The notes under the pieces are model-generated. The model had not been told where the DNA came from, made no database searches, and saw only the letters and a list, made by a program, of their open reading frames with translations. DNA of 64,000 bases from Armatimonadota bacterium. Lineage in GTDB: Bacteria; Armatimonadota; Fimbriimonadia; Fimbriimonadales; Fimbriimonadaceae. How positions within the stretch are numbered: position 1 is the stretch's first letter; each line of letters begins with the position of its first letter. The translations under genes and the position numbers were made by a program. The DNA lies in the NCBI GenBank assembly GCA_037138755.1, contig JBAXHT010000003.1, forward strand, positions 62,001-126,000. The letters are read 5' to 3'. Of the stretch, positions 2,996-53,574 are shown in pieces.

Positions 2996-3547
2996 GTGTC
3001 AGACGGGCGGTACCGGCATTGGAGGAATCCGAACGGGGAAGGGCGGACTTGTTTCGTGACCTCTACATGCCTGGACTTCGCGCACTTGTTCGGTCGCGAC
3101 GAATTGAAAGACGTGATGGTTCGCTCCTTGCTCAGCGATTGCTGCTACTACGGAGCTCGGTTGCACGGATTCGTCGTGATGTCGCACCACATCCACTTAA
3201 TCGTTACTCCAAGCGAGACAGAGGAGATTTCGGACCTAATCCAAAAAATCAAGCGAAACTCGGCCAAGGCAATCAATCCGTTGCTGAATGATCAGGAGCG
3301 TGCTCAGCTGAAGGACCAGATCGGGCTGAATCAGCGGACGTTTTGGATGCGGTCTTTTCGTGGACTCTTGGTCGATTCCGAGAGGGTCTTTCACCAGAAG
3401 TTGGACTATATCCATACGAACCCGGTCCGAGCCTCGCTGGTGGGTCGCCCGGAGGAGTACCGGTGGAGCTCGGCGCGGATGTACTTAGATGAGGTGCTTG
3501 ACGACCACTTCGTGCTCTCCACGGAGAAGGCTCTGCGACTGTTCTAA
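2996..3547 (+). CDS. REP-associated tyrosine transposase (RAYT, IS200-like Y1 family)
   Basis: 183 residues, the usual size for a RAYT. Such enzymes are single-strand DNA nucleases related to IS200/IS605 transposases and act on REP hairpins. The metal-binding HUH signature is visible as SHHIHLIV (about residues 62-69). The C-terminal hallmark KLDYIHTNPVRASLVGRPEE with YRWSSAR (about 136-162) contains the likely catalytic tyrosine region. GTG start with an AAAAAGGGA stretch upstream. The stop codon is only 10 bp before a 25-bp palindrome, and three such palindromes follow within 270 bp. This is the expected layout of a RAYT with its own REP family. The gene appears intact. Confidence 0.9.
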   Translation: MSDGRYRHWRNPNGEGRTCFVTSTCLDFAHLFGRDELKDVMVRSLLSDCCYYGARLHGFVVMSHHIHLIVTPSETEEISDLIQKIKRNSAKAINPLLNDQERAQLKDQIGLNQRTFWMRSFRGLLVDSERVFHQKLDYIHTNPVRASLVGRPEEYRWSSARMYLDEVLDDHFVLSTEKALRLF

Positions 3548-3557
3548 TACTTCCGAT

Positions 3558-3582
3558 GCCTCCACAGTCGCACTGTGGAGGC
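3558..3582. repeat. REP hairpin 1
   Basis: Arms GCCTCCACAGT and ACTGTGGAGGC around the loop CGC: an 11-bp perfect stem that extends to 13 bp with flanking AT. It lies 10 bp after the RAYT stop codon and may also serve as its transcription end, although no T-run follows. Confidence 0.85.
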
Positions 3583-3667
3583 ATGATTGGTCACTCCGGC
3601 TGGTACGGATGCTGTTCAGATGGTGCCGTTCCGAGCTCGTAGGTTGCTCTGCAGGCTGGTCGTCTTA

Positions 3668-3692
3668 GCCTCCACAGTACGACTGTGGAGGC
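3668..3692. repeat. REP hairpin 2
   Basis: Same 11-bp arms as hairpin 1, loop ACG, followed by ATC. Confidence 0.85.
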
Positions 3693-3729
3693 ATCGGTTC
3701 TGGCTCTTTTGCTCCCGTGCCTGATGCCG

Positions 3730-3746
3730 CAGCAGTCTCACTGCTG
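3730..3746. repeat. Degenerate REP-like hairpin
   Basis: CAGCAGT, loop CTC, ACTGCTG: a 7-bp stem with the same 3-nt loop size and the same AGT/ACT at the loop end as the neighbours. It could be a decayed family member. Confidence 0.45.
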
Positions 3747-3791
3747 AGTGCTTGTTTGGGTGCGAGACTTGCCTGGGGGCTGGTCGTTATC

Positions 3792-3816
3792 GCCTCCACA
3801 GTGCGACTGTGGAGGC
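3792..3816. repeat. REP hairpin 3
   Basis: Same arms as hairpins 1 and 2, loop GCG, followed by ATCGAG and then composite repeat copy C. Confidence 0.85.
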
Positions 3817-3819
3817 ATC

Positions 3820-3894
3820 GAGAACAAGCTGGGCGGGCGAATGGCGATTGGCACCCCAGCACGAGTCCCTAGTTAGCCCACGAAGTGGCTCGTC
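3820..3894 (+). repeat. Dispersed composite repeat, copy C
   Basis: Begins AGAACAAGCTGGGCGGGC and continues to AGCCCACGAAGTGGCTCGTC, the same ending as copy D (about 5310-5330). It directly follows REP hairpin 3 and reaches the stop codon of the next minus-strand gene. Confidence 0.7.
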
Positions 3895-5225: not shown

Positions 5226-5330
5226 TGGAAGAACACTGACAAGCTGGGCGGACGGAGGGCGATTGGCTCGGGTGGTTGTTCGCTTGACAGTGCCACCCGA
5301 GTCCTTACCCAGCCCACGAAGTGGCTCGTC
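5226..5330 (+). repeat. Dispersed composite repeat, copy D (longest)
   Basis: Starts GGAAGAACACTGACAAGCTG, shares the core with copy A and the AGCCCACGAAGTGGCTCGTC end with copy C, and is followed 10 bp later by a REP hairpin. This copy best shows the full unit. Confidence 0.75.
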
Positions 5331-5340
5331 GGAACCTTTA

Positions 5341-5365
5341 GCCTCGGGATCGCGGATCCCGAGGC
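5341..5365. repeat. REP hairpin 4 (different stem)
   Basis: Arms GCCTCGGGATC and GATCCCGAGGC, loop GCG, followed by ATC. Feet (GCCTC/GAGGCATC) and loop length equal those of hairpins 1-3, but the inner six base pairs differ on both sides. Confidence 0.8.
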
Positions 5366-30835: not shown

Positions 30836-31690
30836 CTACTGGACGGAAGGCGAAGCCCAGTTGAAGCCCCAAGCCTTATAGTCAGTTCGAAGACCAGCAC
30901 TATCCGTACAGTTTTCTCGTCCACAAGGGTGAAGAGCCCTGAACTTGTTATACTTGGCATGTCCGTCAACATAACCAACGTTTGATCCTTCGCTAAATGG
31001 ACCCCTGTAGTTAGCGCCCCAGAAGCTTGAATAGGCAGATCCTACACTTGCTCCGTTGTCGCAATTGCCGTCAACACATCCGCCTGGCCATTGGGTACCG
31101 ATGGAAGGGAAGTTTGACCACATTGCAACCTTGGCAATGTTGGTGAACTTTCCGGAGGTCATAGAGATGCCACCGTCAATGTTTACGGTAGCACTGGTAT
31201 TCCACCAAGGGCCGGTACAGGATACTTGCCCCTCATTCAGAGACTCGTTCCAAAGATAATCTAGAGGTGGGTAGATGTCATCGTAAAAGTTTGCCTGTCC
31301 TCGAGTGGACACGCCGAGCGCACCAACACAAGGGCTAGCTGGGTTTTCCATGTAGAAGCCGTAGCCATTTCCACCTTGCTTCTTCTGGTACGAACCAATT
31401 TTGAACGTCGAAACCGACGATGTGAAAACCTGTCGGTTCTTGATGTAAGGCATGAATCTCGCCGCGTTAGCGTAGAAGTCAGGCCACTCAACGAATGGAA
31501 GCATGTCATCGGTATCAGCCGTGTAGAGAATGCCACCCATGGTGTTATTCTTGATGTTGCTGAGATCAGAGGTCTTCTTGGCTGCCAATTTCGCCTGAGC
31601 GAAGACTGGGAAGAGGATCGCGGCGAGGATTGCGATAATCGCAATCACGACGAGGAGTTCGATGAGCGTAAACGCTCGATTGTTTTTCAT
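30836..31690 (-). CDS. Pseudopilin-like protein (prepilin N-terminal methylation domain), copy 1
   Basis: 284 residues. [20 protein letters not shown] is a type IV prepilin/type II secretion cleavage signal, cut before Phe by prepilin peptidase, with the conserved Glu5 of the mature protein. [13 protein letters not shown] continues the helix. The C-terminal globular part has NVGYVDGHAKYNKF, resembling the DG motif of DUF1559 (H-X9-DG) proteins, without the His. Lies 17 bp downstream of the amylase gene, so probably co-transcribed and under LacI control. Confidence 0.88.
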   Translation of the reverse strand: MKNNRAFTLIELLVVIAIIAILAAILFPVFAQAKLAAKKTSDLSNIKNNTMGGILYTADTDDMLPFVEWPDFYANAARFMPYIKNRQVFTSSVSTFKIGSYQKKQGGNGYGFYMENPASPCVGALGVSTRGQANFYDDIYPPLDYLWNESLNEGQVSCTGPWWNTSATVNIDGGISMTSGKFTNIAKVAMWSNFPSIGTQWPGGCVDGNCDNGASVGSAYSSFWGANYRGPFSEGSNVGYVDGHAKYNKFRALHPCGRENCTDSAGLRTDYKAWGFNWASPSVQ

Positions 31691-47030: not shown

Positions 47031-47792
47031 CTATTTTAGATCCGTTCCGTTGTATCCACCCGGAGTCAGGTTTGGATCAGCGGAACCAAAGTTGGGGTTG
47101 ACTGTCATTTGCGACGCGGCAAAGCTCTTCGAGTGGCCATCAACAAAGGTTAGATTTCGACGTCCCTCTAGTGAACCGGGGCCGATGGAGAAGCCGACGT
47201 TTTTGCCCCAGGGGCCAACGGGGCCAGTTTGCCCAAAGTTGTGAGCATTCACCCACTCAAAAACCATCACCTTTGAAGCTGGCTGTGAAACCTGTGTAAA
47301 GGAGACCGACTCACATGTCCCAACTGGACAAGCTGCGTCGCCTGCCAGCAGGCCCAGAGATGTTACTGACGCCAAGAATGAAGGAGGTCGGTAGAGAGAT
47401 GAGACGTACGAGTAAGAGGTGTCGTTGAATGCCGAGCGCGAAGCATCTGAAGGACAGTAGAGCAGAGCCGAGGAAGAGTCGGAATCGTACTGGCTTCCAG
47501 CTCGACTCTTGAGTGCGATACCCAGATACGGCATCAAGGGAAACCGGAATCGGCGGCCGGTCCAAAGACCCGTCACATTCGTGTTTGGAAGCATATCGTC
47601 TGAATCTGAAGCGTATAGGGTGAACGCCAAACCAACGCTTTTCAGGTTAGAAAGACATGCTGTCTGCTTCGCAGCTTCCTTCGCTCGGGCGAAGACGGGG
47701 AAGAGAATCGCGGCCAGAATGGCAATAATAGCGATCACCACCAAGAGTTCGATAAGGGTGAAACCGCGGCGAATCTGCATTGTTAAGACCAT
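47031..47792 (-). CDS. Pseudopilin-like protein, copy 2
   Basis: 253 residues. [20 protein letters not shown] is the prepilin signal with mature Glu5; [14 protein letters not shown] follows. The globular part ends with [18 protein letters not shown] (DG motif). The ATG at 47792 is chosen for the AAGG seven bases upstream; another in-frame ATG lies four codons later (47780). It diverges from the MalK-type ABC gene. No assembly ATPase or secretin lies nearby. Confidence 0.87.
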
Positions 47793-49109: not shown

Positions 49110-50060
49110 ATGTCGCGACGCGCATTTACCCTGATCGAACTCTTGGTGGTCATCGCCATCATCGCCATTCTCGCTGCCATCCTCTTCCCAGTTTTCGCAC
49201 AGGCGAAACTTGCGGCCAAGAAGTCAGCTGACCTAAGCAACACTAAGCAGATTGGAGTTGCCCTTCAAATTTATCTCGCTGACAACGATGACACATTCAT
49301 GCCGTCGAATCACCGCGAGAACAACAGCGCAAACTTCGAAACCCACTGGTCATGGATGTTGCTACCTTATCTAAAGAACGAGCAACTATTCGTCTCTCCA
49401 GCCTGTAAGATTAACGGCTGGGCTCCTTCGCAGTATAACAACACCAACAACAACCGCGGCTTCGGAATTCCGAGCATTCAAACGGATTATCCTACGTCAT
49501 ACCCCGCGACCTACACCCAGCAGGTCGGTCGCATCAGCTATGTAGCGAACCAATCGATCATCGGTCGCAAGCGAACCACTGCCGATACTTCCAACGTAGT
49601 TAATGCAACCGCCATTGATGGCGTCAGCCAAACCATCGTGGTTGCGCCAGCGACAGAATCGAAGGAGTGCATGAGAGGTACCGACGGTGAATATCGTACG
49701 TACCGACCAGCCTTCGGTATTGCCGCAAGGGGTCAGCTGGCTCTTTCAGGATCCAGTCTTCCTGCTGCATCTGCCTTGCCGTTGGAGGCTATTACTTGGG
49801 CAACGGCATCAACGTTGTGGAATCGTTGCGAAGGTAAGAACGGCGTGGTCGCTGGACAACCTCCAGTCGATTTGACCCTTCGATTTACCAACTCCGGCCG
49901 GTTCGACAAGGGTAACAACTACGTGATGTGCGATACATCGGCAAAGTTCCATCCAACGAATGCAACGTTCAATCCACAGCGCTACATGTGGGGTAAGGCT
50001 GCTTACTCACTCGGCGGACTTCCGGTTATCAACCCAGCCACTGGACTAGAAGTTCAGTAA
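49110..50060 (+). CDS. Pseudopilin-like protein, copy 3
   Basis: 316 residues. [20 protein letters not shown] and [20 protein letters not shown] match copy 1 almost residue for residue, while the globular domains differ. The end ([14 protein letters not shown]) sits where the other two copies have the DG motif but lacks it. Several paired cysteines may form disulphides. Expected to be cleaved and methylated by prepilin peptidase and exported. Confidence 0.87.
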
Positions 50061-53549: not shown

Positions 53550-53574
53550 GCCCCGGGATCGAGGATCCCGAGGC
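53550..53574. repeat. REP hairpin 5
   Basis: GCCCCGGGATC, loop GAG, GATCCCGAGGC, followed by ATCGAG. Same stem type as hairpin 4 with one mismatch. It is 48 kb away from the RAYT, so the family is spread beyond the cluster. It may also help end the aldo/keto reductase transcript. Confidence 0.75.

Follow-up and report, generated by a model that had tools for sequence, protein, structure and literature searches.

A probable REPtron with GTAG-less hairpins and two stem classes in a genome of the Armatimonadota

Introduction

Biochemical work on the recognition of REP hairpins by RAYT (TnpAREP) transposases covers RAYT groups 2 and 3 (PMC8266576). The TnpAREP of E. coli, a member of group 2, has been shown to carry out cleavage and strand transfer in vitro, and its REPs have the tag GTAG and a required bulge (PMC8266576). 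In the group 3 systems of Pseudomonas and Stenotrophomonas, each RAYT has one REP class with a class-specific stem; the REPs start with GT(A/G)G, are present in tens to more than 1000 copies, also form inverted doublets, and can persist as orphan classes once their RAYT has been lost (Nunvar et al., 2013; PMC3686654).

GTAG is absent from TnpAREP subclass 2.6 (Quentin et al., 2018), which is known mainly from Bacteroidetes and was described as having 'atypical secondary structures'; its proteins are about 179 aa long, carry NH[LIV]H, WQ, YIH[QN]NP and SS motifs, and have a short insertion between helix C and strand 4 (PMC6006769). The same survey includes in subclass 2.6 the RAYT group 5 defined by Bertels et al. 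(2017) (PMC6006769). The palindromic repeats tagged with CGTC also lack GTAG, vary in their stems in a paired way and are often dimers; AT makes up their first stem pairs, and most of them have CCA tails (Di Nocera et al., 2013; PMC3733652). The Armatimonadota are not mentioned in the main TnpAREP survey (PMC6006769), and searches of the open-access literature found no report of REPtrons or repetitive extragenic palindromes in Armatimonadota or Armatimonadetes and no further REP study of RAYT group 5.

The locus described here lies in the window, the whole stretch of 64,000 nucleotides of an Armatimonadota genome that was analysed. It contains a known kind of RAYT/REP system with an unusual recognition tag. 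Very probably it is a REPtron, in which a domesticated IS200/IS605-like HuH transposase of the RAYT/TnpAREP type goes together with REP hairpins that are probably recognized in two parts, and in which one class of hairpins, type 2, looks orphaned. It extends REPtrons to the Armatimonadota. As in the group 3 systems, there is one REP class per RAYT, and class-specific stems, inverted doublets and an orphan class occur; in contrast to those systems, GTAG is missing and the copies number a dozen or so. The E. coli system provides the best structural match of the protein and likewise has a short 5' tag beside the hairpin, but its GTAG is missing here. As in the CGTC-tagged repeats, the stems vary in pairs and doublets are formed, whereas AT lies outside the stem.

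The RAYT gene and its protein

The gene at 2996-3547 is a Y1/HuH RAYT (Table 1). The HuH motif of its product is formed by H65 and H67; these two residues and Y138 are invariant in an alignment with 16 relatives, and Y138 is probably the catalytic tyrosine. An AlphaFold model, for which an alignment of 28 relatives was the input, has a mean pLDDT of 88. Its top structural match is the REP-bound TnpAREP of E. coli (4er8; Z 16.3, 143 residues), which a profile comparison also ranks as the closest solved structure (E 4.6e-10). The IS200/IS605 transposases ISDra2 (Z 13.3) and IS608 (Z 13.2) come behind it in the fold comparison. The residues linked to the reading of GTAG in the E. coli protein, E100, H101 and R104, align here with G/S/A, hydrophobic and variable residues.

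By its motifs, its length and its GTAG-less hairpins, the protein is likely to belong to TnpAREP subclass 2.6, or RAYT group 5. It is 183 aa long and has the HuH, W, YIHTNP and SS motifs, and its GTAG-less hairpins have copies elsewhere in the genome. It departs from the subclass in having HHIH and WM, where its aligned relatives have NHxH and WQ, and its loop between helix C and strand 4 is about 8 residues shorter than that of the Bacteroidetes relatives. Relatives at about 35% identity come from Flavobacterium and many other phyla, and several of them also have non-GTAG hairpins.

Whole-genome searches found one gene of this RAYT clade in the genome; the three other Y1_Tnp genes are distant. 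At one locus (L016, C1:1832015-1835251), an ORF (259-1782) joins a PrmC-like methyltransferase in frame to a distant Y1_Tnp domain that follows it, with CCCGGCG-TCT/TCC-CGCCGGG hairpins on both sides of the Y1 part.

Hairpins and inverted doublets in the window

Table 1. Positions of the RAYT gene, the REP hairpins and the inverted doublets in the window.
Feature	Position	Strand	Remarks
RAYT / TnpAREP-like HuH-Y1 transposase gene	2996..3547	+	183 aa; Pfam Y1_Tnp (PF01797) E 7.8e-9
REP hairpin 1, type 1 (GCCTCCACAGT CGC ACTGTGGAGGC)	3558..3582	+	perfect; covariance-model match 5.7e-9
REP hairpin 2, type 1	3668..3692	-	perfect; covariance-model match 2.9e-10
REP hairpin 3, type 1	3792..3816	-	perfect; covariance-model match 1.8e-10
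REP hairpin 4, type 2 (GCCTCGGGATC)	5341..5365	-	perfect; covariance-model match 6.5e-9
REP hairpin 5, type 2	53550..53574	-	one mismatch in left foot; covariance-model match 4.4e-5
REPIN A, an inverted pair of hairpins 1 (+) and 2 (-)	3555..3695	.	GAT outward at both ends; one long hairpin when folded
REPIN B, an inverted pair of hairpin 3 and a degenerate left partner (3726-3750)	3723..3819	.	sequence

The arms of hairpins 1-4 are 11 bp long without a mismatch and enclose a loop of 3 nt; those of hairpin 1 stretch out to 3556-3584. In hairpin 5, the left foot is GCCCC and the right foot GAGGC. The inner six pairs of type 1 (CACAGT) and type 2 (GGGATC), which the original prediction took to be completely different, do differ at most positions but have the A at position 4 in common.

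Like other RAYT genes, this gene has flanking palindromic hairpins, which lie on both sides in its relatives and on the 3' side only in the window, and these hairpins have dispersed copies. Classical REPs are preceded by GTAG or GTGG and often number more than 100; here AT, with GAT in this genome, stands 5' of the hairpin, and the copy number is low. The arrangement of two inverted REPs with outward tags that defines a REPIN is found in REPIN A and in a second inverted doublet of the same genome (C1:1514339-1514488). The degenerate left partner of hairpin 3, with the stem CAGCAGT-CTC-ACTGCTG, was absent from the original prediction. REPIN A and REPIN B share GGCTGGTCGT, which directly precedes the right-hand hairpin of each, hairpin 2 or hairpin 3, on its inner side.

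Besides the hairpins, another dispersed element, about 97 bp long, is situated at 5239-5335 and ends just before hairpin 4. Partial copies of it are found in the window at 653-709, 1953-1982, 3824-3852 and 3862-3894, and more at other loci of the genome (L018, L100, L102 and L103). That it might be a part of the hairpin unit was rejected, as its other copies in the window have no adjoining type-2 hairpin. The window also contains three similar stretches of 113-124 bp (31555-31678, 47659-47771 and 49116-49242); the one examined looks like the start of prepilin-type genes and not like a mobile repeat.

Copies across the genome

In the 3.27-Mb genome, the type-1 pattern with at most 3 mismatches has 6 occurrences per strand and the type-2 pattern has 4, where one palindromic site may score on both strands; the reversed-pattern controls give 0 in both cases. 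The covariance model has 19 matches at E<=0.05, some of which are the two strands of one palindrome. The genome therefore contains a dozen or so hairpins, a low copy number for a REP family, and the prediction of a RAYT with its own REP family holds. A search with the feet alone (GCCTC-N13..19-GAGGC), close to the form in which a genome-wide check had been proposed, finds no enrichment, with 47 matches against 77 in the reversed control. The feet alone thus do not define the family, and the whole hairpin is the repeated unit.

The feet, which had been described as fixed, are nearly so, but they too vary in a paired way: a copy at C4:206975 combines the type-1 stem with the flipped feet CCCTC/GAGGG. 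A type-2 copy at C2:252002 has a one-base bulge (GCCTG-CGGGATC). GAT next to the foot is invariant in 9 of 9 hairpins of this genome, the flipped-foot copy included.

Several of the copies are intergenic. At C1:1514339, homology with genome G016 breaks off on one side precisely where the AT foot begins, and on that side alone. Comparisons of C1:1514339, of the RAYT locus with G016, and of C1:1697438 turned up no clean empty site and no locus that could be shown to be homologous on both sides; they give no evidence of hairpin insertion or recent mobility. The short ORF at L103 2036-2487 (C1:1514035-1514486) extends into the inverted doublet, and the matching frame of G016 has a TAG stop shortly before the homology ends at the AT foot. 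The stretch at L104 3330-3700 (C1:1698329-1698699), which has numerous short matches in both G016 and G001, is another dispersed repeat.

Paired variation of the stems

Across 17 hairpins aligned without gaps, 8 of the 11 pairs change on both sides, and the three constant pairs are foot pairs. This supports the predicted hairpin with near-fixed feet and paired stem changes. The covariation score is 0.695, compared with 0.173 in shuffles and at most 0.10 in slid controls. As the 17 sequences were chosen as hairpins, their 100% pairing is a product of that choice, whereas the variety of their paired states is not set by it.

Hairpins at the loci of related RAYTs

RAYTs of the same clade (>100 bits) are present in 19 of the 61 genomes of the first set searched. 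The named close matches are MAGs of Armatimonadetes and Fimbriimonadaceae, by which the genomes of the clade probably belong to the order Fimbriimonadales (Armatimonadota). Perfect hairpins of 9 bp or more lie within 350 bp of the gene at 17 of 36 clade loci, on both sides at 15 of them, against 6 of 159 control tiles (p=4e-10); at about half of the 36 loci there is none within this distance. The flanking hairpins are mostly in mirror orientation around the gene, and neighbouring hairpins at the loci examined are arranged '+-' in 15 cases and '-+' in 3.

The consensus at the clade loci is (A)T|[G/C]CCTC-N6-loop-N6-GAGG[G/C]|T, and no description of such a foot and tag, (A)T|SCCTC...GAGGS, was found in the open-access literature. 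When 62 hairpins of RAYT loci are oriented solely by their loop, position -1 is T in 59 of them and position -2 is A in 49; at -3, 34 have C and 16 have G. Of the guide tetranucleotide GATG that had been suggested, T and mostly A are therefore conserved, and GAT is constant in this one genome. Conservation across the order does not extend to the G at -3, and the final base of GATG already opens the stem, where it switches between G and C.

Matches to the covariance model number 57-71 in each of the genomes G023, G036, G042 and G050, with the highest count, 71, in G050. Such matches occur in 26 of 40 genomes with the RAYT profile and in 12 of 73 without it (p=3e-7), and among the 52 genomes outside the first set in 10 of 18 with a RAYT and 6 of 34 without (p=0.01), the model being built partly from genomes that were later counted and the counted genomes not being mutually independent. 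As exceptions, G002, G003 and G035 have a RAYT and no model matches, and G008, with 23-24 hairpins, lacks a close RAYT.

Two stem classes and two RAYT lineages

Genome G001, of the same genus, has two sister RAYTs that are 53% identical to each other, each with its own stem class. RAYT1 is 65% identical to the RAYT of the window and is flanked by GCCTCCACAGT. RAYT2 is about 52% identical to it and is flanked by hairpins of the CGGGATC/CGGGATT class (GCCTCGGGATC), which there have a one-base bulge. Whole-genome searches, together with a check for remnants at the loci around the hairpins, did not find a RAYT2 gene in the genome of the window, and because of this its type-2 hairpins look like orphans. 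The original prediction had been staked on the stem classes not belonging to other transposases; in part they do, although the other transposase, RAYT2 of G001, is a related one.

Among 23 RAYTs, the distance between stems follows the distance between proteins (Mantel r=0.45, p=5e-5). A part of this correlation is due to shared descent, so that it supports, and does not prove, a sequence-specific reading of the stem. In the four genomes in which dispersed copies were examined (G001, G023, G029 and G042), most of them bear the stem of the local RAYT. G029 and G071 belong to different genera, and their RAYTs, mutually nearest within the set, have an identical stem. The feet and the T/AT tag are common, and the inner stem looks RAYT-specific.

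Proposed mechanism and alternative explanations

By homology, the RAYT would bind the single-stranded hairpin, cleave beside it by means of a tyrosine, probably Y138, and rejoin the ends. It most likely nicks REP hairpins and spreads them in trans as single-stranded DNA, often in the form of REPINs. Recognition is probably two-part. The common part would consist of the SCCTC/GAGGS foot and the unpaired 5' T, which mostly occurs as AT and in this genome as GAT. The conservation of these elements suggests that SCCTC serves as the docking base and that the unpaired T or AT stands in for the classical GTAG tag. The RAYT-specific part, again as suggested by conservation, would be the inner stem with a loop whose first base is C or T. 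This would account for a stem that changes by paired substitutions and in step with its RAYT. The two stem classes of this genome belong to two RAYT lineages.

The original prediction held that one transposase reads only the feet, the structure and a GATG guide, so that any paired stem serves and the gene at 2996 acts on both classes. Both classes do have identical feet, the GAT tag and a loop that begins with a pyrimidine, and the genome has a single clade RAYT. This explanation is nevertheless improbable: type 2 flanks a RAYT of its own in G001, stem distance tracks RAYT distance, most of the dispersed copies examined match the stem of the local RAYT, and the feet themselves can flip (C4:206975). 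That the gene and its hairpins are an ordinary insertion sequence of the IS200/IS605 type, moving as a unit, would agree with the HuH-Y1 fold that it shares with ISDra2 and IS608 and with the hairpins on both sides of related genes. The end hairpins of IS200/IS605 elements have one common orientation, whereas those flanking the RAYTs mirror each other; the genome has a single clade gene next to three distant Y1_Tnp genes instead of a set of near-identical copies, and the top structural match is a TnpAREP. Such an element is very unlikely here and was rejected.

Hardly credible at all is the possibility, also rejected, that the hairpins serve as intrinsic transcription terminators or as structures at gene ends and merely happen to be near the gene. 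Hairpin 1 begins only 11 bases past the RAYT reading frame, and several of the genomic copies are intergenic, but none of hairpins 1-5 is followed by a T run, and their sequence is shared with copies elsewhere in the genome. The hairpins of relatives, moreover, are found upstream of the gene as well, in mirror orientation and with a fixed outer AT.

Within the preferred explanation of a REPtron with two-part recognition, a stricter recognition code is put forward tentatively and may well prove wrong: the foot and the 5' T would be an invariant docking site, the inner stem would be read by each RAYT specifically, and the T or AT next to the foot on its outer side would take over from GTAG in guiding cleavage. 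Under such a code, sister RAYTs in one cell would keep separate hairpin populations, and the sequence of a stem could be predicted from that of the RAYT protein. The system bears on how RAYTs distinguish their own REPs from others and on what stands in for GTAG in the lineages that lack it. The 23 pairs of RAYT and hairpin, with closely similar feet and different stems, amount to a natural mutagenesis set.

Hairpin arrays and more distant relatives

Near-regular arrays of hairpins occur on one or both sides of some RAYTs, with spacings of about 49 and 56 bp: around the RAYT at L089 (genome G026) and upstream of it at L078 (G032). RAYT relatives in Planctomycetota, Pseudomonadota and others (L133, L159, L164, L173, L179 and L180) have hairpins with a CGTTCCCA-type foot, variable inner stems and no GTAG.
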